NCBI GenBank assembly: GCA_026984515.1
Contig: JALSRZ010000118.1
Span: 1 to 44,801 of the forward strand
From: Thiohalobacter sp.
GTDB taxonomy: Bacteria > Pseudomonadota > Gammaproteobacteria > DSM-19610
Direction: 5' to 3'
DNA length: 44,801 nt
This document shows, one piece after another, positions 6,022 through 44,801 of the stretch. Under the pieces are notes generated by a model. The model searched no databases. It was given only the letters and a program-made list of their open reading frames with translations, and had not been told where the DNA came from. Position 1 is the stretch's first letter. Each line of letters begins with the position of its first letter. Position numbers and translations under genes: made by a program.

Positions 6022-6062
6022 GGAACCTGTCGGGTTTGGGAACCATCTACTGCGCTGGCGAG
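6022..6062. repeat. Family B repeat, end fragment
   Basis: These 41 bp match the right end of the 168-bp palindromic element at 35545-35712, read in reverse complement, with 4 differences. Shared words include CCTGTCGGGTTT and ATCTACTGCGCTGGCG. Only one arm is present, so this is a truncated or solo end. It lies between prfA and prmC and includes the region just before the prmC ribosome-binding site. Confidence 0.7.
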
Positions 6063-6073
6063 GGAAAAGCGGC

Positions 6074-7383: not shown

Positions 7384-7567
7384 TTAACCCGCATTTCTCA
7401 CCGGGTTCCGTAACGAGGCGGTGGCAGGTCGTGTGATCAGCGGCGTTCGCGACCGAGGGCTGCGCAGGCATAGTCGACACCATGTCGAGCAGCCCGACCG
7501 AGTGAACGCCGCTTAGCGCGCGGCATGACGCCGCCGCAGCAGGAAGTCGGTGAGAAATGCGGGTTAA
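7384..7567. repeat. Family A palindromic repeat, complete copy (MITE-like)
   Basis: A 184-bp imperfect palindrome that occupies most of the gap 7377-7695. Its ends are inverted copies: TTAACCCGCATTTCTCACCG begins at 7384, and the reverse complement of the same 20 bases ends at 7567. The match extends to 26 bp with two mismatches. Inner segments are also partly inverted (AGCGGCGTTC, GGGCTGC), so the RNA or single strand could fold into a long hairpin. It has no coding capacity. Related copies lie at 23746, 37795 and 44708. The remaining 7568-7695 is the moeB upstream region, in which I see no clear promoter. Confidence 0.85.
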
Positions 7568-11175: not shown

Positions 11176-12063
11176 ATGGATAGCCTCAAACGCATGGTCA
11201 TTTTCTCGCACGTGGCAGAAACCAGGAGTTTTTCCGCGGCCGCGCGCAAACTGGGTATTGCACGGTCGGCGGTCAGTCGCCACATCGCGCTGCTCGAACA
11301 AAGTGTCGGCGTCCGGCTGCTGAACCGCTCGACCCGCAGCGTAAGCCTGACTGAAGCCGGGCAAACCTACTACCGGAGCTGCGCGCTCATTGTCGCCGAG
11401 GCGGAAACCGCCAGCCGCCGTATCAGTCAGCTGCGCGATGAGCCGGCGGGCACCCTGAAAGTGGCCGGCCCCACCAGCTTCGGCAGCCAGCTGGCCACCC
11501 TGGCCGGCAGGTTCATGCAACAATACCCGGCGTTGCACATTGAACTGCTGCTGGACGACCGGGTTGTGGACATGGTGCGGGACAGCATCGATGTGAGCAT
11601 CCGGGTTGGCTGGTTGAGCGACACCACCCTGGTTGCACGCCAGTTGTGTGAGTCACCGCGACTGCTCTGCGCATCGCCGGGTTATCTCGAACGCCACGGA
11701 CGGCCCGAATCACCATCCCGGCTGGCCGACCACGAGTGCATCATATTCAGCCTGCTGCCCACGCCCCATCAATGGACGTTTTCGAAAAACGGCCGCCAGG
11801 AAAATATCCACGTCAAGGGACGGATGAAAACCAACAGTGCAACGGCGGTACGCGCCCTCATCCTGGATGGCAGCGGCATTGCGCCGCTTTCGAATTTCCT
11901 GGTTGGTGACGACATCCGGGCAGGCCGCCTGGTGCACCTGCTGCCCGATCACGACTGCGGCAGCGCCGGTATCTACGCCGTCTACCAGGACCGGCGCTAC
12001 CAGCAAGCCAGGGTTCGATTGTTCATCGACTTTATCCAGGAGCGCATGCAGGCACTGATATGA
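11176..12063 (+). CDS. LysR-family transcriptional regulator (LysR-1)
   Basis: A 295-residue LTTR. The winged helix-turn-helix covers about residues 18-37 (SFSAAARKLGIARSAVSRHI), followed by a linker helix and a periplasmic-binding-protein-like effector domain. It is of the AaeR/DmlR-like subtype with the conserved 'ESPRLLCASPGYLERHG' segment. It is strikingly similar over its whole length to LysR-2 at 22849. Shared stretches include SAVSRHIALLE, GVRLLNR, IIFSLLPTP and DCGSAGIYAV/NCGSAGIYAV. It diverges from the reductase/methyltransferase operon and converges on the end of the six-gene ubiD operon. The effector is unknown. Confidence 0.94.
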   Translation: MDSLKRMVIFSHVAETRSFSAAARKLGIARSAVSRHIALLEQSVGVRLLNRSTRSVSLTEAGQTYYRSCALIVAEAETASRRISQLRDEPAGTLKVAGPTSFGSQLATLAGRFMQQYPALHIELLLDDRVVDMVRDSIDVSIRVGWLSDTTLVARQLCESPRLLCASPGYLERHGRPESPSRLADHECIIFSLLPTPHQWTFSKNGRQENIHVKGRMKTNSATAVRALILDGSGIAPLSNFLVGDDIRAGRLVHLLPDHDCGSAGIYAVYQDRRYQQARVRLFIDFIQERMQALI

Positions 12064-12973: not shown

Positions 12974-15157
12974 TCAGGCGCCGTGCCGCGCTTGACGTAC
13001 GTACCGGCGCCTGGATTTCCCGGCATCGGAACTGTCATCATCCCGCCTGCCGTGTGACCTGGTTTCATGGAAAGCACGCATGGCACTCCTCATCAGGCGT
13101 CTTTTCAGACCCTTTTGCAGTTTTCCGGCCTGTGACAGTTCTTTCAGTACCCGCGCTACACAGTGACGGTAATCATGGGCGCTGTCCCAGTCATCCAGGT
13201 AACTGCAGGGGATTTCGGGGATCACCAGTCGCTCCGAAGCACGCAAGCCATACAGGCGGTTATGCACCCCTCCTGGCCACAGCACATCGACCACGCCCTT
13301 GCGGGCTCGCCCCATGCCCAGGTGGACGGTGAGGCTGTCCTGCGATGCGTAGCTGGCACCACCGAGCACCGGATGCATGACCGTAGTCCCTCCCTGCGGG
13401 GTAAAACGGACCACCGCACCAATGCCGTCGCGGTTGACCACGCCGCGCGTCGCGAGACCTGCCGTGCCCATCAGCCTGACGCTGGCCCAGTGGTTGCCGT
13501 TATCAGCGCTGTTGATCTCCACCGCCAGCTCGCCGTCGGCCGGATCCATTCCATTCCACGAAAATCCGGTCTGACTGACCGGAGTGAAGGAAGGAAAAAA
13601 GAACGCAGTCGCATCCGCGTCACTTCCCCAGTGGGTGGCATACGGAACCAGGGGGAGCGGTGGCGGCAGGGCAAGATTGGCTACCGATACGATATCGACA
13701 AAGCCGTCCTGGTTGAGGTCACCGCTGGCCAGTCCCTGCACGTTACGGCGCGAATGATCGATCGACCCGTCCAGCGCATCGAGATCATAGCGAAAGCCTC
13801 CCGCACCGTCATTGTTCAGGTACATCCCCGGGTTGGAAACCTCGATAAGCGGCCCGCCATCGCCACCACCGTAGTAGATGATGTCCGTGTCACCATCATT
13901 GTCATAGTCTTCCATAACGGTTCCCCAGCCAAACACGGAAGACACCAGCCCGCCCGGTCCGGGATCACTGAAGGAGCCGTCCGGCTGACCAAGAAACCAC
14001 CTGGATGCGTAGCTGCCCAGTTCATACGGCAAGGGCCTGGGGAAAACTGTCAATACATAGTCACCCACATTGGTGGCAAACAGGTCCATGTAGCCATCCC
14101 CGTTAATGTCACCAAACGAAAGACCCTTCCAGTCACCAAAACGATTGGTCCCGGCCTGGACGGTCACATCACTGAACCTGCCGTTACCGTCGTTGTTCAT
14201 GATGTGAATGAATCCCCTGTCGACACCGCCCTGGTTTGCAGGAAGAACACCGCCACCCTGATCATCGACCCATACCATATCGGCATCCCCGTCGAGGTCG
14301 TAATCCACCAGCGCAATCGCCCAGGTCACACTGGCCGCATCCGCGGGTGCCTGGTCGGGAAAACCGGCCAGCTCCCGTATACCGGATGCCTCACTGCTGT
14401 CGACAAAAGTCCTGTCACCTGTGTTGGTGAAGAGCTGGTTGTGATCGTTAAAGCCAAATGCGTTGAAGATCGCAAGGCGGTTGTCCCAGGTATCCGAAGT
14501 GTTCGCAATGACGATATCCAGTAAACCGTCGCCATTGACATCCCCCATGGAACAGGAAGCGGAATAATGACTGCCGGCCCCCATACCGCTGCTGGCGGTG
14601 ATATCGGCAAAAGTACCATTACCCAGGTTTTCAAACAGCCGGTTCGGCTCGCCACTGCCAAGCACGTACAGGTCCTGGTCGCCGTCATTGTCGATATCGC
14701 CATAACAGACACCGCTGGCATCCATATCGGTGGCGGCAACACCGGCATCAAACGATCGGTCGATAAATTCGAGCGCACCGCGCTCCGACCACTGGTTGGC
14801 GTACAGGGTATTGGCCGCACCCGGGCCGTTGGTCACGTACAGGTCAGGATCGCCGTCCCCGTCGTAGTCAAATATCGCCACGCCCGGGGCACCGCGGGAT
14901 TTCAGCGGTACCATGCCGAGTTGGGAGGCACTGAGAACCGGCTGTGCCTTCAGCGCATCCCAGATCCGGTCACGCACGGATTCGACACGCCGGTAACTGA
15001 TCCCCGCCCCGTCGTTTGCCGCAATATCGTGGAAACTGACGCTGTTGATGATACTCCCGGCGTCACACTGCACCGCGGTCAAATACAGTACGACGGCACT
15101 TGCCCGGATCTTCAGTCGCGTGGCCGCCATGGCCTCCTTCCTCTTGCTGTACAACAT
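12974..15157 (-). CDS. Exported FG-GAP/ASPIC-UnbV beta-propeller protein 1
   Basis: A 727-residue exported protein of the CRTAC1/ASPIC type. After a signal peptide come seven calcium-loop motifs of the form DxDxDGDxD, at about 97, 154, 206, 285, 350, 417 and 480. They fit a seven-bladed propeller like that of integrin alpha chains. An ASPIC/UnbV domain follows at about 572-640 (NRDGIGAVVRF...GGASYASQ...VLWPGG). The last 80 residues have Cys651 and Cys666, a helical region and an acidic DDDSSD motif followed by a basic tail. ATG 15157 has AAGGAG 7 bases upstream. A second ATG at residue 10 also has AAGGAGG. It is the third of three tandem paralogues in transcription order. Binding partner and activity are unknown. 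Confidence 0.88.
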   Translation of the reverse strand: MLYSKRKEAMAATRLKIRASAVVLYLTAVQCDAGSIINSVSFHDIAANDGAGISYRRVESVRDRIWDALKAQPVLSASQLGMVPLKSRGAPGVAIFDYDGDGDPDLYVTNGPGAANTLYANQWSERGALEFIDRSFDAGVAATDMDASGVCYGDIDNDGDQDLYVLGSGEPNRLFENLGNGTFADITASSGMGAGSHYSASCSMGDVNGDGLLDIVIANTSDTWDNRLAIFNAFGFNDHNQLFTNTGDRTFVDSSEASGIRELAGFPDQAPADAASVTWAIALVDYDLDGDADMVWVDDQGGGVLPANQGGVDRGFIHIMNNDGNGRFSDVTVQAGTNRFGDWKGLSFGDINGDGYMDLFATNVGDYVLTVFPRPLPYELGSYASRWFLGQPDGSFSDPGPGGLVSSVFGWGTVMEDYDNDGDTDIIYYGGGDGGPLIEVSNPGMYLNNDGAGGFRYDLDALDGSIDHSRRNVQGLASGDLNQDGFVDIVSVANLALPPPLPLVPYATHWGSDADATAFFFPSFTPVSQTGFSWNGMDPADGELAVEINSADNGNHWASVRLMGTAGLATRGVVNRDGIGAVVRFTPQGGTTVMHPVLGGASYASQDSLTVHLGMGRARKGVVDVLWPGGVHNRLYGLRASERLVIPEIPCSYLDDWDSAHDYRHCVARVLKELSQAGKLQKGLKRRLMRSAMRAFHETRSHGRRDDDSSDAGKSRRRYVRQARHGA

Positions 15158-15266
15158 CACTTTTCTCCTTGTTGAATCCTGCTATCGTTAACAGGCACCA
15201 AACCTCACTACGGGTTCAAATGACAGCAACAGGAACCCGTTCCGGCATCCTTCAGCCTGATCCCCG

Positions 15267-17408
15267 CTACTCATGCCGCCGGCCGTGCGCACCGCTTCTC
15301 CCTGGCCGGGAAACATCACTGGAATCATCATCCCTGTTCCGGGCTTCGCGGTAGGCGCGCATGGCACTGGCCAGCAGGCGATGCCTCAGCCTGTGATCCA
15401 GCCTGTCTGCAGCGGCAAGTTCCCTGAGCGCGGTCACAACACAGCGTCGGTAATCCCGCCGGCTTTTCCAGTCCGCGTCGTAGCTGCAGGGTATTTCCGG
15501 CACTACCAGCCGTTCAGATGCCCGCAGGCCGTAGAACCGGTTGTGCACACCACCAGGCCACAGCACCTCCAGTACACCCTTGTGCGAGTGCCCCATCCCG
15601 AGGTTCAGCGTAAGACTGTCCTGCGACCCGTAGCTGGCACCGCCGCTTACCGGGTACATTACCGGCTTCCCGCCGTGTGGCGTAAAACGGACCACGGCGC
15701 CTATGCCGTCGCGGTTGGACCGTCCCCCGGAGACCAGGCCGGATGTCCCCATCAGGTCGACACTGGCCCAGTGGTTACCATTGTCCGCGCTGTTGATTTC
15801 CACCGTGATGGTTCCGTCAACCGCCTTCAGGCCACTGGGGACAAATTCACCCGGTCCGACCGGTGTGAAAGACGGGAAGTAGTAAGCCGTCGCGTCCATG
15901 GCACTTCCAAACAGGATCGGGTACTGCAGCAGGGGAAAGGAATCCGGCAAATCGAAGTTGGACACCGTAACCACATCGATAAAGCCGTCTGCATCAAGAT
16001 CCCCGGCAGCCACTCCCTGCGGATTACGTCGTGAATGGTTGGTGGAATTCGCCAGCGCAGCCAGATCATAGGAAAAGCCGGCGTGACCATCGTTCCGCAA
16101 CACCACCCCGGGATTGGACTTGTCTACATAAGGACCGGTATCCAGCCCGCCGTAATACATGATGTCTGCATCGCCGTCGTTGTCGTAATCTTGCGCAATG
16201 ACTCCCCAGCCGAAGACGCTGGAGACCAGGCCGCCGACACCCGGATCGGAAAACGAGCCATCCGCCTGCCCGAGGAACCAGCGCGATGCTGCCGCGCCCA
16301 GCTCCATGGGCAGCGGAAACAGCTGCAGGGTATAATCTCCCCCGTTGGTTGCGAACAGGTCCAGGTGGCCATCGGCGTTGAAATCGGCAAAGGCAAAACC
16401 CATCCACGCTCCCGGATGGTTGGTGCCCGCCTCGATACTGACATCCGTAAACTGACCGCTACCGTCATTCTGCAACAGGTGAATAATGCCGCGGTCCACA
16501 CCACCGGACGCCGCGTCCGGCACCGCACCCTGGTCGTCTCCAAACAGAATATCGACGTCACCATCCAGGTCGTAGTCCAGCATGGCGGTTGCCCAGGTTC
16601 GGCCGCTTTCTCCGGGAGGCAGGCCTGCCAGGATCTGCACACCGGAAGTCGCGCTCACATCGATAAAGGTATTGCTGCCGGCATTGAGGAACAGCTGGTT
16701 GGGCGCATTGTGGCCAAATGGCTGGAAAACCGAGAGGCGGTGGTCCCAGGTTGCCGAATTGTTTGCGACCACGATATCCAGCAGACCATCCCCGTTTACG
16801 TCGCCCATGGAACAGCCTGCGGGGTAGCGGTCCCCTGCGCCCATCGCACTGGCCACGGTAATATCCGTGAAGGTGCCGTCACCCTGGTTTTCAAACAGGC
16901 GGTTGGGCTCACCGGCACCGGTTACATACAGGTCCTGGTCACCATCGTTATCGATGTCGCCATAGCAGAGGCTGTTGCTGTCCATGTCGGTTGCGGCAAC
17001 GCCGGCGGCGACGGCTACATCGACAAAACGCAGCTCCCCGGTCTGCACCAGCTGGCTGGAGTAGAGAGAATTGGCAGTCCCCGGGCCATTGGTGACGTAC
17101 AAATCCAGGTCACCATCCCCGTCAAAGTCGAATATCGCCACACCGGGAGCACCACGGGCCTTTTCCGGAGTTCGCGGAACGTCGGCAAAAGTGAACTTCG
17201 GTTGTGCTCGTATTGCGTCAAACAGGGCGTCCCTGTGTGGAGAACCGGTGCGTCGATAACTGATGCCAGCACCGTTGTTGGCGGCGATATCATGGAAAGA
17301 AACGCTTTGTGTCTGTTTTGACGCACCCGCACCCGTGCTAAACAGCACCAGCGTCAGTACGGTGCCAGTCAGAACCGCAGCGTAGTTTATACTTCTGGTC
17401 GTTTTCAT
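15267..17408 (-). CDS. Exported FG-GAP/ASPIC-UnbV beta-propeller protein 2
   Basis: A 713-residue paralogue of its two neighbours. ATG 17408 is chosen because AAAGGAG lies 8 bases before it and a clean signal peptide follows (MKTTRSINYAAVLTG... to ...STGAGA). The mature N terminus 'SVSFHDIAANNGAGISYRR' is nearly the same as in protein 1. Seven DxDxDGDxD calcium loops (DFDGDGDLD, DIDNDGDQD, DVNGDGLLD, DYDLDGDVD, DFNADGHLD, DYDNDGDAD, DLDADGFID) are followed by the ASPIC domain and the conserved C-terminal module (EIPCSYDADW, YRRCV, DDDSSD). It is the middle copy. The 109-bp gap to protein 1 has no promoter that I can see. Confidence 0.88.
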   Translation of the reverse strand: MKTTRSINYAAVLTGTVLTLVLFSTGAGASKQTQSVSFHDIAANNGAGISYRRTGSPHRDALFDAIRAQPKFTFADVPRTPEKARGAPGVAIFDFDGDGDLDLYVTNGPGTANSLYSSQLVQTGELRFVDVAVAAGVAATDMDSNSLCYGDIDNDGDQDLYVTGAGEPNRLFENQGDGTFTDITVASAMGAGDRYPAGCSMGDVNGDGLLDIVVANNSATWDHRLSVFQPFGHNAPNQLFLNAGSNTFIDVSATSGVQILAGLPPGESGRTWATAMLDYDLDGDVDILFGDDQGAVPDAASGGVDRGIIHLLQNDGSGQFTDVSIEAGTNHPGAWMGFAFADFNADGHLDLFATNGGDYTLQLFPLPMELGAAASRWFLGQADGSFSDPGVGGLVSSVFGWGVIAQDYDNDGDADIMYYGGLDTGPYVDKSNPGVVLRNDGHAGFSYDLAALANSTNHSRRNPQGVAAGDLDADGFIDVVTVSNFDLPDSFPLLQYPILFGSAMDATAYYFPSFTPVGPGEFVPSGLKAVDGTITVEINSADNGNHWASVDLMGTSGLVSGGRSNRDGIGAVVRFTPHGGKPVMYPVSGGASYGSQDSLTLNLGMGHSHKGVLEVLWPGGVHNRFYGLRASERLVVPEIPCSYDADWKSRRDYRRCVVTALRELAAADRLDHRLRHRLLASAMRAYREARNRDDDSSDVSRPGRSGAHGRRHE

Positions 17409-17503
17409 CCCGGAAACTCCTTTCTGGTTAGTTATGGTTTCAACTGTCGCGTGCATCCCTTGCGCCCCGCAATCATGCGGAGTGCAAGGGATGTTCAGCA
17501 ACT

Positions 17504-19684
17504 TCAGCTGCGATGGTGTTTTTTACTGCGGTGATGCCGGTCACGCCGGGATAATCCGGGACGCCCGGCATCGTCACTGGAATCATCGTCTGCGTCAGGC
17601 CTGCGCGCCTCGGCAAAGGCCCGCATGGCACTTTTCATCAGGCGTTTTCGGAGTCCGTACCCCAACTTGCCGGCGCGGCTCAATTCCTTCAGCGCCCTGG
17701 TGACACAATGTCGGTAACTGTGCCTGCTATTCCAGTCGGCATCGTAGCTGCAGGGAATTTCGGGCAATACCAGCTGTTCCGAAGCATGCAGTCCGTAAAA
17801 CCGGTTTCGCACCCCTCCCGGCCACAGCACATCCAGCGTGCCCTTGTGCGCGTCCGCCAGTCCCAGGTTGACCACGAGGCTGTCCTGCGAGGCATAGCTT
17901 GCACCACCCAGCACCGGTCGCATCACCGCTTTGCCACCCTCCGGGGTAAAGCGAACCACCGCACCGATCGCATCCCGGTTGACCCGACCCCGGGAGGTCA
18001 AACCCACGGTACCCATCAGGCGCACACTGGCCCAGTGGTTGCCATTGCCGGCACTGCTGATCTCTACCGACAGGCTGCCATCCACCGGCTCCATGCCGTT
18101 CCAGACAAACTCGCTTGCACTGACCGGTGTGAATGACGGGAAGAAGAAGGCCGAGGCGTCATTGGCACTACCGTAGTCAACATTGTAGGGAACCAGTGGC
18201 AGAGGTTCCGGCATATCAAAGCTGGAGACCGATACGATATCGACAAAGCCGTCGTTGTTCAGGTCACCACCGGCTACACCCTGCACATTGCGGCGCGAAT
18301 GGTTGGTCGATCCCGCCAGAGCATCCAGATCGTACTCGAATCCGGCAGCACCATTGTTTCTGAGGACAACGCCCGGGTTGGACGCCTCCACGAACGGGCC
18401 TACATCAAGACCACCCTGGTAGATAATGTCGGTATCCCCGTCATTGTCATAGTCCGTCATGATGCCTCCCCAGCCAAAGGGCGTGGCCAGCAGCGTACCC
18501 ACACCCGGGTCCGAGAAGCTGCCGTCGGACCGCCCCAGGAACCAGCGGGAAGCAAAACTGCCCAGCGTGTACGGGAATGGCCTCGGAACCAGCGTAAACA
18601 TGTAGTCGCCCAGGTTGGTGACGAACATATCCATGTTTCCGTCGGCATCCAGGTCGCCGAAGGACAGGCTCATCCACGCCCCGACCCGGTTCAGTCCAGC
18701 CTCTACATTGACGTCTGTGAAAGTGCCCGTACCATCGTTCTGCATCAGATGAATCATGCCGCGGTCAAAACCGCCGTGTGCGGGATCCAGTACTTCCCCC
18801 TGGTCATCCACCATGACGATATCGGCGTCACCATCCTGGTCGTAATCCACCATGGCGATGGCCCAGGTGATGCCGGCAGAACCCTTGAGTTCGGGCGGGA
18901 AACCGGACAGATCACGAATACCCGAGGTCGCGCTGCGATCCACAAATACATTGTTTCCCTCATTGACGAACAGCTGGTTGTGTTCGATATCCCCGAAGGC
19001 GTCAAAGATCTCGAAGCGGTCGTTCCAGCTGCTCCAGGTATTGGCCACCACGATATCCAGCAGGCCGTCGCCATTCACATCGCCCATGGAACAACCTGAT
19101 GGATTCAGATCACCGCCACCGGTGCCACTACCGGCACTGATTTCGATAAATGCTCCGGCGCCGTCATTTTCAAACAACCGGTTCGGCATACCGGTGCCCA
19201 GCACGTAAAGATCCTCGTCACCGTCGTTATCGATATCACCAAAACAGGCGCCGGTACCGTCCAGGTCAACGGCTGCCACGCCTGCACTGCCGGCAACATC
19301 AATGAAGGCCAGCGTGCCGGATTCCTGCAACTGGTTGGCAAACAGCGCGTTGGGTGCACCGGGACCATTGGTGACGTACATATCCTGATCGCCGTCACCG
19401 TCGTAATCAAAGATCACCACTCCGGGGGCCCCGTGTGATTTCATCGGGATCATCGGCGCTTCTGAAAACAGCAAAACGGGCTGCGCCTTCAGCGCATCGA
19501 ACAGGGCATCCCGGGGGGATTCCTGCCGTGCATAGTCAAGACCGCTTCCCGCATCCGTGGCGATATCCCGGAAAGTCACCCCGTCGGTAGCGCCTGCCTT
19601 CGCGGCCGATGAACAGACCGCGACCGCAAGCACGGATGCAAACAGTCTGCCGACAGCACAATTACGTACAGCATTATATTTCAT
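17504..19684 (-). CDS. Exported FG-GAP/ASPIC-UnbV beta-propeller protein 3
   Basis: A 726-residue paralogue and the first of the three in transcription order. ATG 19684 is chosen for its AAGGAGG Shine-Dalgarno 5 bases upstream and a signal peptide ending near 'CSSAAKAGA'. It has the same layout: seven calcium loops (DYDGDGDQD to DLNNDGFVD), ASPIC domain, then EIPCSYDADW, YRHCV and DDDSSD with a His/Arg/Lys-rich end. Four cysteines are shared by all three copies: one before loop 2, one before loop 3, and two in the C-terminal module. That suggests two disulfides in an exported protein. The TIM-barrel gene lies 45 bp upstream. Confidence 0.88.
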   Translation of the reverse strand: MKYNAVRNCAVGRLFASVLAVAVCSSAAKAGATDGVTFRDIATDAGSGLDYARQESPRDALFDALKAQPVLLFSEAPMIPMKSHGAPGVVIFDYDGDGDQDMYVTNGPGAPNALFANQLQESGTLAFIDVAGSAGVAAVDLDGTGACFGDIDNDGDEDLYVLGTGMPNRLFENDGAGAFIEISAGSGTGGGDLNPSGCSMGDVNGDGLLDIVVANTWSSWNDRFEIFDAFGDIEHNQLFVNEGNNVFVDRSATSGIRDLSGFPPELKGSAGITWAIAMVDYDQDGDADIVMVDDQGEVLDPAHGGFDRGMIHLMQNDGTGTFTDVNVEAGLNRVGAWMSLSFGDLDADGNMDMFVTNLGDYMFTLVPRPFPYTLGSFASRWFLGRSDGSFSDPGVGTLLATPFGWGGIMTDYDNDGDTDIIYQGGLDVGPFVEASNPGVVLRNNGAAGFEYDLDALAGSTNHSRRNVQGVAGGDLNNDGFVDIVSVSSFDMPEPLPLVPYNVDYGSANDASAFFFPSFTPVSASEFVWNGMEPVDGSLSVEISSAGNGNHWASVRLMGTVGLTSRGRVNRDAIGAVVRFTPEGGKAVMRPVLGGASYASQDSLVVNLGLADAHKGTLDVLWPGGVRNRFYGLHASEQLVLPEIPCSYDADWNSRHSYRHCVTRALKELSRAGKLGYGLRKRLMKSAMRAFAEARRPDADDDSSDDAGRPGLSRRDRHHRSKKHHRS

Positions 19685-19729
19685 ACCCACCTCCTTCATG
19701 TATTTTTGTAGGTTCGTGTCAAAACATCC

Positions 19730-22848: not shown

Positions 22849-23745
22849 ATGGATGACCTGAGACGGATGGTAATCTTCTCTCACGTGGTAGAAGCAAAGA
22901 GCTTCTCGGCGGCGGCGCAACGATTGGGCATTGCAAAGTCGGCGGTCAGTCGCCACATCGCCCTGCTGGAGAAAAGTGTTGGTGTGCGTTTACTGAACCG
23001 CACCACGCGCAGCCTCAACCTGACCGAGATCGGTGAAACCTATTATCAGGGTTGCGCCCGCATTGTTGCAGAAGCGGAAGAAGTGACCCGGCGCATCAGC
23101 ACGCTGCAGGACCAGATGTCCGGCACACTGCGGGTAGCCAGCCCCATCGTTCTTGGCAAACGTTATATCGCACCGCTGCTGGCTGACTTCGTTCAACAGC
23201 ACCAGTCCCTGCACGTCGAACTGGTCCTGGAAGACCAGATGGTAGATATGGTGGAATCGGGTATCGATGTCGGGGTTCGCGTTGGCTGGCTCAAGGACTC
23301 CATGCTGCTGGCACGAAAAATTGCAGAGTCACCGCGCCTGTTATGCGCTTCCCCCGCCTACATTGAACGCATGGGAAAACCGGAATGCCCCGAACAACTG
23401 GCCAAACACGACTGGATTATTTTTTCGCTGCTGCCCACCCCGTACCACTGGACGTTTGTTAAAAACCGGTCAGAGAAGCGTATCCAGGTCAAGGGCAAGG
23501 TAAAAACCAACAACGCAGACGCTGTACGATCCTTCCTGTTGAACGGTACGGGACTGGCGGCATTATCCAGCTTTCTGGTTGCCGACGACATAAAGAACGG
23601 GCGCCTGGTACAACTCCTGCCGGACTACAATTGTGGCAGCGCCGGTATCTATGCGGTTTTTCAGGACCGTCGTTACCAGCAGGCCAAGGTACGGCTGTTC
23701 ATCGACTACATTAACGATCAGTTTGCGGACCTGCTGCCGGGATAG
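22849..23745 (+). CDS. LysR-family transcriptional regulator (LysR-2)
   Basis: A 298-residue LTTR, close paralogue of LysR-1. The helix-turn-helix SFSAAAQRLGIAKSAVSRHI is almost identical to that of LysR-1. The effector domain shares long stretches with it (ESPRLLCASPAYIERMG, IIFSLLPTP, NCGSAGIYAVFQDRRYQQA). GGGAGGGAGAAGG lies just before the ATG. It diverges from the ubiD operon, which is the most likely target. Differences between the two effector domains suggest related but distinct inducers, or steps of one pathway. It converges with hslO. Confidence 0.94.
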   Translation: MDDLRRMVIFSHVVEAKSFSAAAQRLGIAKSAVSRHIALLEKSVGVRLLNRTTRSLNLTEIGETYYQGCARIVAEAEEVTRRISTLQDQMSGTLRVASPIVLGKRYIAPLLADFVQQHQSLHVELVLEDQMVDMVESGIDVGVRVGWLKDSMLLARKIAESPRLLCASPAYIERMGKPECPEQLAKHDWIIFSLLPTPYHWTFVKNRSEKRIQVKGKVKTNNADAVRSFLLNGTGLAALSSFLVADDIKNGRLVQLLPDYNCGSAGIYAVFQDRRYQQAKVRLFIDYINDQFADLLPG

Positions 23746-33672: not shown

Positions 33673-34680
33673 GTGTTAACACAAAAGAATCTTGGTGCAT
33701 GGCTGATCAGCCTGCTGGGCGCACTGGCCGCGGGACCGGGCTGCGCAGGTGATTTTCAGGATGACCCGCAGGTGCAGGTTTTTATCGACAACATGGTCAA
33801 ACAGCACCAGTTTGACCGTAAACAGCTGGAAACCCTGTTCGCCAGCGCGGAAAAACGCGAAGATATTCTTGAAGCCATCTCCAGACCGGCGGAAAAAACC
33901 AAGCCCTGGTACGAATACCGCGAGATTTTCCTGACCCCCAACCGTATCGAGGGCGGGGTTGGATTCTGGAAAGAAAACGAGGACATCCTGAAACGGGCCA
34001 GCAGCAAATTTGGCGTCGACCCGGCCATTATTGTTGCCATTATCGGCGTGGAAACCCGTTATGGCGCCCATACCGGCTCCTACCGCGTAATCGATTCGCT
34101 TTCCACCCTGGCCTTTGCCTATCCGCCACGCAGCAAATTCTTTCGTTCGGAACTGGAGCAGTTCCTGATCCTCGCCCGTGAAGAAGACGTGGATCCGGGC
34201 AGCGCCAAAGGCTCCTACGCCGGCGCCATGGGCTACGGGCAGTTCATTCCGTCCAGCTACCGGAGTTATGCCATCGATTTCAATGACGACGGGAAACGTG
34301 ACCTGTGGGACAGTCTCGACGACATCATCGGCAGTGTCGCCAACTATTTCCACCGTCACGGCTGGCATGCCGGTGAACCCGTCGCCGCGAAAGTGGATGA
34401 CACGGCCTCTGTCCGGGAATCGCAGGTTTCCAGAAAGCTCAAACCCGGCGAAAAGACCGCCGGCGACTTTGCGCGTGAAGGCATTACCAGCACACCACCG
34501 TTCCCGGACGGGCAACCGGTTGCCCTGCTGAGACTCGAACAGGAAAACGGGCCCGAATACTGGCTGACCGGCAATAACTTTTATGTCATTACACGTTATA
34601 ATCGCAGTCCTCTGTACTCCATGGCGGTATACCAGCTGAGTGAGGCCATCCGGGATGCATACCGGCAGCAACAGCACTGA
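33673..34680 (+). CDS. mltB: Lytic murein transglycosylase B
   Basis: MltB cleaves glycan strands with formation of 1,6-anhydro-MurNAc. The 335-residue protein has an N-terminal export signal ending near 'GPGCAG'. The residues before Cys24 do not form a perfect lipobox, so it may be a lipoprotein or a soluble periplasmic form. The catalytic Glu127 is in AIIGVETRYGAHTG. 'GAMGYGQFIPSSYRSYAIDF' is the family's peptidoglycan-binding signature. GTG start with AAGGAA upstream. It lies 9 bp after rodA and overlaps the start of rlpA. Confidence 0.95.
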   Translation: MLTQKNLGAWLISLLGALAAGPGCAGDFQDDPQVQVFIDNMVKQHQFDRKQLETLFASAEKREDILEAISRPAEKTKPWYEYREIFLTPNRIEGGVGFWKENEDILKRASSKFGVDPAIIVAIIGVETRYGAHTGSYRVIDSLSTLAFAYPPRSKFFRSELEQFLILAREEDVDPGSAKGSYAGAMGYGQFIPSSYRSYAIDFNDDGKRDLWDSLDDIIGSVANYFHRHGWHAGEPVAAKVDDTASVRESQVSRKLKPGEKTAGDFAREGITSTPPFPDGQPVALLRLEQENGPEYWLTGNNFYVITRYNRSPLYSMAVYQLSEAIRDAYRQQQH

Positions 34681-35548
34681 TACCCGCAGCGCGCACCTGA
34701 ACCGACTCGCCGTCCTGTATGCAGGCGCCCTGTGTGCGCTACTGACCGCCTGTTCGTCCGGTGAGCGCAACACCAGCCGCTATGCCCAGGCCCGGGACAG
34801 TGCGCCCTTCCAGTCAGTGGACCTGTCCACGGTCAGGGATGCCGTCCCGCGCGTAGAGCCCAAAAGCCGGTACGGCAACCCCGCTTCCTACATGGTGCGT
34901 GGCAAGCGCTACACCACACTGGCCTCCAGCAAGGGCTACAGGCAACGCGGCATTGCCTCCTGGTATGGCACCAAGTTCCACGGGCACCGTACCTCCAGCG
35001 GCGAACCCTACGACATGTACCGGATGTCGGCCGCACACAAAACCCTGCCGCTGCCCACCTACGCCCGCGTCCGCAACCTGCGCAACGGCCGATCGGTCAT
35101 CGTCAAGATCAATGACCGCGGTCCCTTCCACGAAAACCGGCTCATCGACCTGTCCTATGCCGCTGCTGCACGGCTGGGCATTCTGGGCAAGGGCACCGGC
35201 CTGGTGGAAGTCGAAGCCATTGACCCGCGGGTCTATGCAGCCGGCAAGACAGACCACAAGGTCGCTGCCAGCAAACCCAAAACCGCGCAGCCACCCGCGA
35301 CCACCAGACAGCCATCGCTGTACCTGCAGCTGGGCGCGTTCAGCGAACGCAGTAATGCCGAACGCCTGAAAGCCCGCCTGAGTGATACCGACCTGCCGGG
35401 TGAACTGCGTATCACCCGCAAGGGCGCCAGCCCGAAGCCGGTTTTCCGTGTGCGTATCGGTCCGCTGGCCAACGTGGAAACTGCTGACCGCCTCACCCGT
35501 CTGCTGGCCGACAAGGGTATCCGCTCCCCACAGGTAGTCATCGACTAG
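34655..35548 (+). CDS. rlpA: Septal ring lytic transglycosylase-type lipoprotein RlpA
   Basis: RlpA removes denuded glycan strands at the septum in Pseudomonas. After a lipoprotein signal (LCALLTAC, Cys33) come the double-psi beta-barrel domain ('GIASWYGTKFHGHRTSSGEPYD' to 'VKINDRGPF', with the catalytic-type Asp in NDRGPF) and a C-terminal SPOR domain ('YLQLGAFSERSNAERLKARL') that binds septal glycan. ATG 34655 is preferred because GAGG lies 8-11 bases upstream; a GTG at 34640 is the alternative. It overlaps the end of mltB by 26 bp. Its TAG stop lies inside the terminal repeat of the next element. Confidence 0.93.
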   Translation: MHTGSNSTDTRSAHLNRLAVLYAGALCALLTACSSGERNTSRYAQARDSAPFQSVDLSTVRDAVPRVEPKSRYGNPASYMVRGKRYTTLASSKGYRQRGIASWYGTKFHGHRTSSGEPYDMYRMSAAHKTLPLPTYARVRNLRNGRSVIVKINDRGPFHENRLIDLSYAAAARLGILGKGTGLVEVEAIDPRVYAAGKTDHKVAASKPKTAQPPATTRQPSLYLQLGAFSERSNAERLKARLSDTDLPGELRITRKGASPKPVFRVRIGPLANVETADRLTRLLADKGIRSPQVVID

Positions 35549-35712
35549 GAGCCTGTCGGGTTTAGGCAATCGTAGCGAGCATGGTGGGAGAGCGAGTCCG
35601 GATGTTCGCAATTTTGAGGCGCATAGTGGACCTACGCAACGAAAAATTGCGGGAATCCGGGCCGCTCTCCCGCCAGCGCAGTAGATTGTTCCTAAACCCG
35701 ACAGGCTCCTAG
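35545..35712. repeat. Family B palindromic repeat, complete copy
   Basis: A 168-bp element with perfect 22-bp terminal inverted repeats (outer end CTAGGAGCCTGTCGGG, positions 35545-35566 and 35691-35712). Inner blocks are inverted too: GGGAGAGCG at about 35592 against CGCTCTCCC at about 35673, and CGCAATTTT against AAAAATTGCG. It could fold into one long hairpin. It has no coding capacity. It lies between rlpA and dacC and contributes the rlpA stop codon. A solo end lies at 6022-6062. Confidence 0.85.
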
Positions 35713-37798: not shown

Positions 37799-37863
37799 CC
37801 CGCATTTCTCACCGGGTTCCTGCTGCGGCGGCGTCATGCCGCGCGCCAGGAGGCGTTCACTCG
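37795..37863. repeat. Family A repeat, partial copy
   Basis: Starting at the CTAG that includes the dat stop codon, this 69-bp copy reads CCCGCATTTCTCACCG, GGTTCC and then TGCTGCGGCGGCGTCATGCC. It matches one end and inner arm of the 7384-7567 element and diverges after GCGCGC. The imuB stop codon (on the other strand) overlaps its inner edge. It fills the gap between converging dat and imuB. Confidence 0.8.
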
Positions 37864-39287
37864 AATACCCCCTGCAGGTACCAGCGCCGTTCGCCAGTCA
37901 GCTCCCGGTAGATCCAGTAGCGCGACCCCGACGGACTGGTTGCCACAAAGTAATCCCGCGCTACATCCCGGCCATCCCACCAGCCGGATTCAATCCGCTC
38001 ACGGCCGGCCTGCAGCTTGAGGGGACCGCGCCAGTACGGCCGGCCCTCCCGGGTTTCGAGCTGTCTTGGCACCGCCAGCAGCCACAGGGGCCTGACCTGT
38101 TCCCGGCTGTCGCTTCGACTGCGGCCGGGCTCGCTGTAGGACCAGGCGTATTCAGGACGATGTTCGGCGATGGCGCTGATACCCTGTACGGCCTCCTCGC
38201 CCAGGCGTGCGCGCAGACAGTCGAGCAAATCGATACGTTCCCGTGCATCCGCCGACCTGAACAGGTCCATCGACCGGGCATCGAGCCTGACCGGCTGCAC
38301 TGCCTGCAGTTCGACCGCGATGACAGGCTTTTCCAACACCAGGCGCTGCAGATGCTCCCGCAACAGCACCGTAAACTGTCCGGCGTCACGACCGGCCCGA
38401 CGCATGCCGATGCGCAGCCGGGTATCGCGTCGTTCGTGGTGCAACAGGCGCACAGTGAAGCTTTGCACACCGGCACCCCGCCCCTGCAGCCAGCCACACA
38501 ATTCCAGCACCAGGCGCTGCAGAACAAACAGCAGGGCCTGGGCCTGTTCGACTTCCGCGACCAGCGGCAGACGCCGCCGAAAGACAGCCGCAGGCTGATA
38601 CAGCACCAGCGGGTCCGGGCAACGGCCCAGCATGCGGTCCAGGTACAACAGGCTCTGTTGACCCAGCCGGCGTGCCAGCCCGTCACGTGGCAAGCGCAAC
38701 AGGTCACCCAGCCGGCGCACGCCCATACCCTCCAGGCGCTCCAGCAGGGCCGGTTCCCAGTCCAGCACCGGGATCGGCAGGGGCGCCAGCGCAGCCACCA
38801 GTTCATGCCGTGCTTCCACCATGCGGCCACCGCCACAGCGTGCCAGAATCAATGCCGCCAGCGGTGTCGGCGCAGCCGCGAGCCGTGCCTCATAACCCAG
38901 CGCAACAAGCCCGCTGCGCAGTCTCTTCAACAGTGCTGTCCGCCCCCCGAACAGGCTCAAACTGCCCTGCACTTCCAGCAACAGGGCATACGGCGGACAC
39001 AGGCTGACCCGGGAACTGAACTGGTATGCCCAGTCAGCAAGACCGCACAGGGCCTCCTGCGCCGCCTTGCTATCCAGGCCATGTACCAGCAGCCCGCCGG
39101 CCAGCACCCGGGCGGCCGCCAGCGGCATGCCGGTACGGATACCGCACTGTTCCGCACCGGCATTACAGAACAACACCCGGGCGCGTCGCCCGTCACCACG
39201 GATCACCAGTGGTCGTGGTTCATTGCCAGTGCGGCTGAGTATATCCAGGGGCAGTCGGGGCAGGTGAATGCAGAGCCAGTGATCCAT
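37857..39287 (-). CDS. imuB: ImuB, catalytically inactive Y-family polymerase-like protein
   Basis: ImuB is the hub of the ImuA-ImuB-DnaE2 translesion mutasome and binds the beta clamp. ATG 39287 gives 476 residues starting [17 protein letters not shown]. The polymerase fold is kept, but the carboxylates of active Y-family enzymes are replaced: the N-terminal D is not seen in 'LCIHLPRL', and the usual D-E pair region reads 'LEVQGSLSLFGG'. The C terminus 'WYLQGVFE' is typical of ImuB. It overlaps imuA by 68 bp. No dnaE2 follows; a repeat and the converging dat gene are there instead. Confidence 0.93.
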   Translation of the reverse strand: MDHWLCIHLPRLPLDILSRTGNEPRPLVIRGDGRRARVLFCNAGAEQCGIRTGMPLAAARVLAGGLLVHGLDSKAAQEALCGLADWAYQFSSRVSLCPPYALLLEVQGSLSLFGGRTALLKRLRSGLVALGYEARLAAAPTPLAALILARCGGGRMVEARHELVAALAPLPIPVLDWEPALLERLEGMGVRRLGDLLRLPRDGLARRLGQQSLLYLDRMLGRCPDPLVLYQPAAVFRRRLPLVAEVEQAQALLFVLQRLVLELCGWLQGRGAGVQSFTVRLLHHERRDTRLRIGMRRAGRDAGQFTVLLREHLQRLVLEKPVIAVELQAVQPVRLDARSMDLFRSADARERIDLLDCLRARLGEEAVQGISAIAEHRPEYAWSYSEPGRSRSDSREQVRPLWLLAVPRQLETREGRPYWRGPLKLQAGRERIESGWWDGRDVARDYFVATSPSGSRYWIYRELTGERRWYLQGVFE

Positions 39288-44707: not shown

Positions 44708-44801
44708 CTAGCCCGCATTTCTCACCGACTTCCTGCTGCGGCGGCGTCATGCCGCGCGCTAAGCGGCGTTCACTCGGTCGGGCTGCTCGACATAGTGTCG
44801 A
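44708..44801. repeat. Family A palindromic repeat, copy cut by the window edge
   Basis: From CTAG at 44708 the sequence follows the inverted right arm of the 7384-7567 element for about 90 bp with a single internal difference (CATAGTGTCGA against CATGGTGTCGA), apart from the outer CTAG/TTAA. The edge is embedded in a 16-bp perfect palindrome TGCGGGCTAGCCCGCA (44702-44717). The rest of the copy lies beyond the window. Such near-identity over 37 kb suggests recent spread or gene conversion. Confidence 0.85.

Follow-up and report, generated by a model that had tools for sequence, protein, structure and literature searches.

The palindromic repeat between rlpA and dacC in the window, by which we mean the whole 44,801-nucleotide stretch of DNA analysed here, is a real element, mobile on an evolutionary scale and MITE in kind, because it has near-identical copies, empty sites and a duplicated target and contains no gene. 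The reading that we favor, with a probability of roughly 0.8, is that this element, called family B here, is a MITE-like non-autonomous DNA transposon that depends on a transposase supplied in trans, inserts at CTAG with a 4- or 5-bp duplication and carries a foldable core under selection, common to two further families, A and C. What is unusual in family B is this core, which covaries, is strand-specific and is held in common between families with different ends.

Structure of the family B element

The window is contig C118 of the source genome G000 (3.37 Mb, 189 contigs), and its positions 35545-35712 read CTAG, 160 nt, CTAG, a palindrome without coding. The original prediction was of a palindromic repeat of about 170 bp with CTAG at both edges and perfect 22-bp inverted ends. 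Direct reading confirms the ends: the 22 nt CTAGGAGCCTGTCGGGTTTAGG recur inverted and without mismatch at the far side, and amount to 18 bp without CTAG. The CTAG edges also stand, but the size does not, because CTAG is the duplicated target and the element proper is 160 bp (35549-35708; plus strand in the orientation of the alignment A1 described below; 171.3 bits with the family B covariance model R1). Its short length, absence of coding and 18-bp terminal inverted repeats are those of a MITE. As read from the sequence, the left terminal inverted repeat, GAGCCTGTCGGGTTTAGG, lies at 35549-35566 (plus strand) and the right one, its exact inverse, at 35691-35708 (minus strand); the start of the family is GAGCCTGTC and the arm-to-arm inverted pair covers 27 nt at 96%. 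Alignment A1 and the core pattern given below place a conserved internal loop at 35571-35579 (left side, CGTAGCGAG) and 35677-35684 (right side, CGCAGTAG), and A1 places a conserved apical part, TTTTGAGGCGCATAGTGG to CTACGCAACGAAAA, at 35612-35645, all on the plus strand. The two copies of the target, to which no strand applies, occupy 35545-35548, where the TAG is the stop codon of rlpA (ORF 34640-35548), and 35709-35712; both are identified from the empty site of a close relative, G007, which has a single CTAG.

The 18-mer end of family B occurs three times in the window with up to 3 mismatches, against 0.03 expected. A solo end had been proposed between prfA and prmC (gene names assigned by NCBIfam), and it is real: 44 nt at 6022-6065 on the minus strand complement the right arm at 89% of positions. 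This end is a decayed relic whose covariance model match is not significant (E 0.7). Elsewhere in the window, three adjacent frames of 728, 744 and 731 aa (12974-19699, minus strand), with repeated stretches at about 2.27-kb spacing, represent a gene for a repetitive protein that has been triplicated in tandem, and frames of 295 and 298 aa at 11176-12063 and 22849-23745 (plus strand) have in common a 298-nt stretch at 73% identity.

Copies and distribution

G000 holds 8 complete copies of family B, the window copy included, that are 97-100% identical, as expected of a MITE. Nine further places are cut by contig ends, two of which (L016 and L013) belong to a single insertion, one on each side of it. 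Other places hold fragments. Across the whole genome the 18-mer end, with at most 3 mismatches, is found at 41 places versus 1 for the reversed pattern. Matches at E <= 0.001 occur in 14 of 56 genomes (G000 included): the genus accounts for 11 (of 17), the rest of the taxonomic family for 2 (of 3) and the rest of the class for 1 (of 36). A search of the named genome collection with the exact 18-mer end gave 58 stretches. Most come from MAGs whose titles name gammaproteobacterial groups, among them Sedimenticola, Candidatus Tenderia and Wenzhouxiangella; a small number bear the names Bacteroidetes, Flavobacteriaceae, Nitrospirae, Nitrospirales or Geobacteraceae, for which mis-binning is possible. 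The whole element had no match in plasmids or phages at E 0.01, and the exact 18-mer was not found in viral contigs.

Empty sites and target duplication

The dacC gene of G007 is 97% identical to that of the window. The rlpA-dacC gap of this relative reads ATCGACTAGTCCATTG, and that of the window ATCGACTAG, 160 nt, CTAGTCCATTG; since the former has one CTAG and lacks 164 bp, 164 bp have been added and CTAG doubled in the window. The original prediction named fixation of the element in all relatives, with no other copies, as the outcome that would speak against it. That outcome did not arise at rlpA-dacC, the locus compared: the B model has no match in any of 13 readable relatives (15 have dacC; the contigs of G010 and G015 begin too close to it for the gap to be read), and there are many other copies. 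The gap of G004 (L145) is longer and begins CTAGGAGCCTG after the rlpA stop, likewise without a B model match. A second family B empty site also has a single CTAG.

Because CTAG is its own reverse complement, targets other than CTAG are needed as proof of a direct repeat. B-type elements of other genomes provide them (CTGG on both sides, CCAG on both sides and, twice, CTTAG on both sides), and these together with the empty sites document the target duplication of a MITE. In family A the 4-mers at the two edges are identical in 28 of the 40 copies with both edges readable (CTAG 21, TTAG 3, and ATAG, CTGG, CTAA and TTAA 1 each) and differ in 12, among them a copy flanked by CTTAG at either edge; one A copy inside a B end duplicates CTAA of known B sequence. 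The target repeat is 4 bp, sometimes 5, because non-CTAG 4-mers and CTTAG recur on both sides. At three loci of G000 (L003, L010 and L048), A and B elements adjoin or nest and have target sites in common.

Edges do not always agree, and this counts against our best explanation. They are unequal in 3 of the 8 complete B copies of G000, in the 12 of 40 A copies just given and, over 4 bp, in 11 of 20 copies of G010, more often than would be expected if young copies carried a plain target duplication. Edge bases deviate from CTAG at 4.7% (B) and 9.9% (A) of positions, and mean internal divergence is 1.2% (B) and 1.8% (A). Part of the deviating edges in family A are true alternative targets. We considered very-short-patch repair as the source of CTAG-to-CCAG edges and dropped it, as G010 shows CCAG on right edges too. 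Nor did we retain the idea that an old target is carried into the new site, as three sites reading CTAG in G007 fit plain mutation equally well. The copies of G010 (L338-L359) belong to a high-copy B-like subfamily with a different inner terminal sequence, in which CTAG at one edge is often paired with CCAG at the opposite edge.

Location at gene ends

The element had been noted to sit at a gene end, and it does, with the TAG of its target serving as the rlpA stop. Among 41 element matches examined in context, 17 coincide with a C-TAG stop, 23 lie in gaps and a single one lies within a called gene, and the background CTAG sites of the same 581 kb divide into 28 on a C-TAG stop, 45 in gaps and 51 inside genes; these gene calls are crude longest-ORF calls, which missed the rlpA stop at the window copy, and one insertion (L241, L244) is taken twice. 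Outside coding interiors the share on C-TAG stops is alike for elements (17/40) and background (28/73), so gene-end location needs no special cause: CTAG targeting and the loss of gene-breaking insertions suffice. As a check for replication-strand bias, GC skew was taken at 38 context loci and in the window, and its sign varied.

Fold and covariation

Folded as DNA, the 168 nt form a single long hairpin of -61.6 kcal/mol versus -24.9 +/- 2.8 in 200 shuffles, none of which was as low (z -13 as DNA, z -14 as RNA). We aligned 32 divergent copies out of 47 complete elements (alignment A1), leaving out by hand 6 more G000 copies and 9 others that nearly duplicated another element or had an unusual length. 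Of the 60 predicted pairs in the consensus fold, 39 show double changes that preserve the pair. Of the cells of the alignment, 96.4% are paired, compared with 84.5% in shuffles, which lose the relatedness of the copies, and 32-48% when partners are slid, which keeps it; double changes fill 209 cells versus 57.8 in shuffles, and none of 500 shuffles reached the observed value in any of the five measures. Paired cells include 145 G-U and 27 A-C, or 86 to 27 without the three pairs where wobble is commonest, an excess somewhat inflated by a structure program that permits G-U. On double-stranded DNA, G-U and A-C are one thing viewed from opposite strands. The predominance of G-U over A-C therefore suggests that the fold of one strand matters, and this strand, as RNA or as single-stranded DNA, appears to be under selection for its fold.

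Two other accounts of these data have to be weighed. Arm-onto-arm copying is known in long palindromic DNA, and family B is a long palindrome in which such correction during replication would produce double changes with no selection on the fold. We consider this unlikely: although the stems of the A1 copies vary widely, their internal loop keeps its asymmetry and remains unpaired, and copying offers no reason for one strand to favor G-U over A-C. Much less probable still is that the sequence is no selfish element but a structured RNA that serves the host, for instance at 3' ends or as a terminator. The strand-specific fold, the RNA z-score and the position at gene ends would suit such an RNA, but the elements lie 8 times in sense and 9 times in antisense relative to the stopped gene (hand count), among readable genomes presence at rlpA-dacC is confined to G000, and no Rfam family corresponds: the best match in the element region was mir-363 at E 0.55, far below its cut-off, and the sole match in the whole window was a tRNA elsewhere.

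One core under several ends

The window also holds a complete family A element of 176 bp, flanked by TTAA, at 7388-7563 (plus strand; B model E 1.5e-9). Partial A copies lie at 37800-37865 and 44713-44801, the latter running past the contig end. Families A and B had been thought unrelated, a view that does not hold up, given their common loop motif, their kind of target and the finding of A by a model made from B alone. About 20 nt inward of the B ends the internal loop has CGTAGCGAG as its left side and CGCAGYAG as its right side, and family A has the same motif at about equal depth although its terminal repeats differ; in some A copies the GTAG of the loop is GTAA. The pattern CGTARCGAGN{90,120}CGCAGYAG has 99 matches versus 1 when reversed, is present in 12 of 17 genus genomes and occurs 58 times in G000, where 9 matches are of B type and the remainder look A-like by eye, and 24 times in G010; one of the 99 matches, in G015, is unlike an element. 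The expectation of an organism rich in such elements is supported by these 58 matches.

A covariance model built from family B alone found all 13 of the A copies on which it was run, out of 42, at 42.7-58.8 bits and on one strand, with at most 25.4 bits for the opposite strand among the matches listed. Scoring the opposite strand of each palindrome controls fairly for palindromy by itself, and the A matches owe part of their score to being palindromes. A third family, C, with ends CCTGGACTATTCATGAA, was found in G002 at 42.9 bits versus 18.5 on the opposite strand. From these comparisons of sequence we infer that families A and B are related. Ends and core would be separable modules, because the same core lies under A, B and C ends; at C90 and C174 of G000 a B left end is joined to an A interior. 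In two plasmids of Persicobacter sp. JZB09 (L365, L366), palindromes of about 190 bp start CTAG-GAGCCTGTCGG, a B-like end, and the B model found no core match in them.

Transposase and origin of the ends

In Sedimenticola HyVt-446, two IS1380-family gene starts (L361, L363) have left ends in which CCCGCATTTCTCACC follows TTAA and CTAG, respectively, and the end of family A matches these at 15 of 15 nt, a comparison confined to left ends, as contig ends cut the genes. A third IS1380 gene start in that genome lacks an A-type end. Family A, whose ends thus match an IS1380 element, is most likely an IS1380-derived MITE. Five plasmid IS1380 copies were read: three are flanked by CTAG at either side and have CCCG ends, and the remaining two have no clear ends. 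IS1380 elements resemble A and B in their CTAG (or TTAA) target and 4-bp repeat, and one report gives a 5-bp repeat for the family member IS1247 (PMC3281130); they differ from B in encoding a transposase, at about 1.6 kb, and in their ends.

For the parent of family B we viewed by eye the open frames beside 24 single B ends, and none was found to qualify. Searches for DDE_Tnp_1 and DUF4096 gave no G000 match and no locus with B ends, and those for DDE_Tnp_1_4 and Y1 likewise no locus with B ends. In G000 the IS1380 family is represented by a single fragment, located at a contig edge. Since MAGs often lack high-copy elements, a missing transposase in G000 is weak evidence. A B-like end lies beside a transposase gene of G011 (L166), which we take to be of IS1182 type.

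The common target and 4/5-bp repeat favor IS1380 for family B, and the look of the end favors IS5. On the former account, B is an IS1380-derived MITE like A whose ends have diverged along with another IS1380 transposase. This is plausible, if short of even odds: B duplicates 4 or 5 bp (CTTAG) at CTAG-like sites as A and IS1380 do, CTAG accompanies CCCG ends in the three plasmid copies, and the core is in common with A. However, all IS1380 ends read here begin CC, unlike GAGCCTGTC, and PF13701 had no match in the B-rich genomes G010, G018 and G019. Alternatively, B may be an IS5-family (IS427-like) MITE, with A and B moved by different transposase families and only the core in common, and this too we regard as a credible minority view. 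The GAG..TGT style is typical of IS5-type ends, and the end of B presumably suits IS5; here the style was observed in ISPsy19 only. An IS427-type gene of Sedimenticola has CTAG immediately before its putative end, and MITEPsy1, marked 'IS5?' by its describers, duplicates CTAG or YTAA (PMC3189936). Yet the end beside the Sedimenticola gene is GGGGTGTTC rather than that of B, and PF13340 (IS427-type) genes occur in 3 of 20 genomes searched but are absent from G000, with no B end beside the four loci read. A MITE of IS630/Tc1-mariner type, with TA duplicated inside CTAG, is hardly to be expected. IS630 prefers the TA of CTAG, but whole 4-mers (TTAG, ATAG, CTGG, CCAG) stand on both sides of these elements where a 2-bp TA duplication would be required, and DDE_3, searched in G000 only, had no match. 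Scarcely less improbable is that B is REPIN-like and that a RAYT mobilizes it in single-stranded form, using its hairpin as substrate. REPINs are themselves mobile hairpins with compensatory changes (PMC3116915), the unpaired GTAG beside the inner stem resembles that of GTAG-tagged REPs (PMC3733652), and G000 has one RAYT gene; but that gene is flanked by other repeats (GGGGACAGATTTATTTG) with no B end within about 1.5 kb, target duplications exist, and the ends of B are long CTAG-flanked inverted repeats, not GTAG-tagged units. The RAYT-type gene (L205; contig C15 of G000, about 1400-2230) lies among its GGGGACAGATTTATTTG repeats, with two weak A-like ends about 1.3 kb upstream.

Discussion

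ERIC and other gammaproteobacterial intergenic palindromes are imperfect and similar to family B in size. We found no description of the present sequences among the open-licence PubMed Central papers that our searches listed. On the parts of the literature available to us, the closest described element is MITEPsy1 of Pseudomonas syringae pv. phaseolicola, a gene-less element with 18-nt inverted ends that was caught in transposition (PMC3189936). It is like B in being short and gene-less, in the length of its ends and in its 4-nt CTAG duplication; it differs in its length (100 nt) and its ends (GGAAGGTC...), and the portion of the paper at hand makes no mention of a covarying core common to families. 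REPINs are the precedent for between-arm compensatory changes in a mobile hairpin (PMC3116915), but their REP units are tied to RAYT, whereas long inverted ends and a duplicated target characterize B. For GTAG-tagged REPs and TIR families, G-T stem pairs are noted along with an unpaired GTAG beside the stem, as in B; those units are 20-40 bp, whereas the GTAG of B sits in an internal loop inside long ends (PMC3733652).

We envision a scenario in which a transposase encoded elsewhere recognizes the 18-bp inverted ends of family B and directs insertion into CTAG or a closely similar site, where 4 bp, or on occasion 5, are duplicated. This would be a DDE transposase acting in trans, IS1380-like or IS5-like. 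The harmless CTAG sites would mostly be TAG stops and gaps, which would leave the element at gene ends. Covariation and the G-U excess suggest that the core is kept because one strand must fold, as single-stranded DNA or RNA, and the same core, with its two-sided internal loop, would be carried by A and C under other ends. More speculatively, and with the odds in our estimation clearly against it, the hairpin core could be a selfish module selected to fold as one strand, whose ends have changed at least twice (A, B, C) as it switched transposases, in effect a hyperparasite of insertion sequences; C90 and C174 would then be intermediates.

MITEs are usually viewed as transposon ends that enclose arbitrary sequence. 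In the present elements it is the enclosed sequence that looks conserved, as a strand-specific covarying hairpin under at least three sets of ends. If this is true, such elements could be tracked by their folded core rather than by their ends, and the role of the core, whether in single-strand transfer, in binding of a host factor or as an RNA, would be directly testable.
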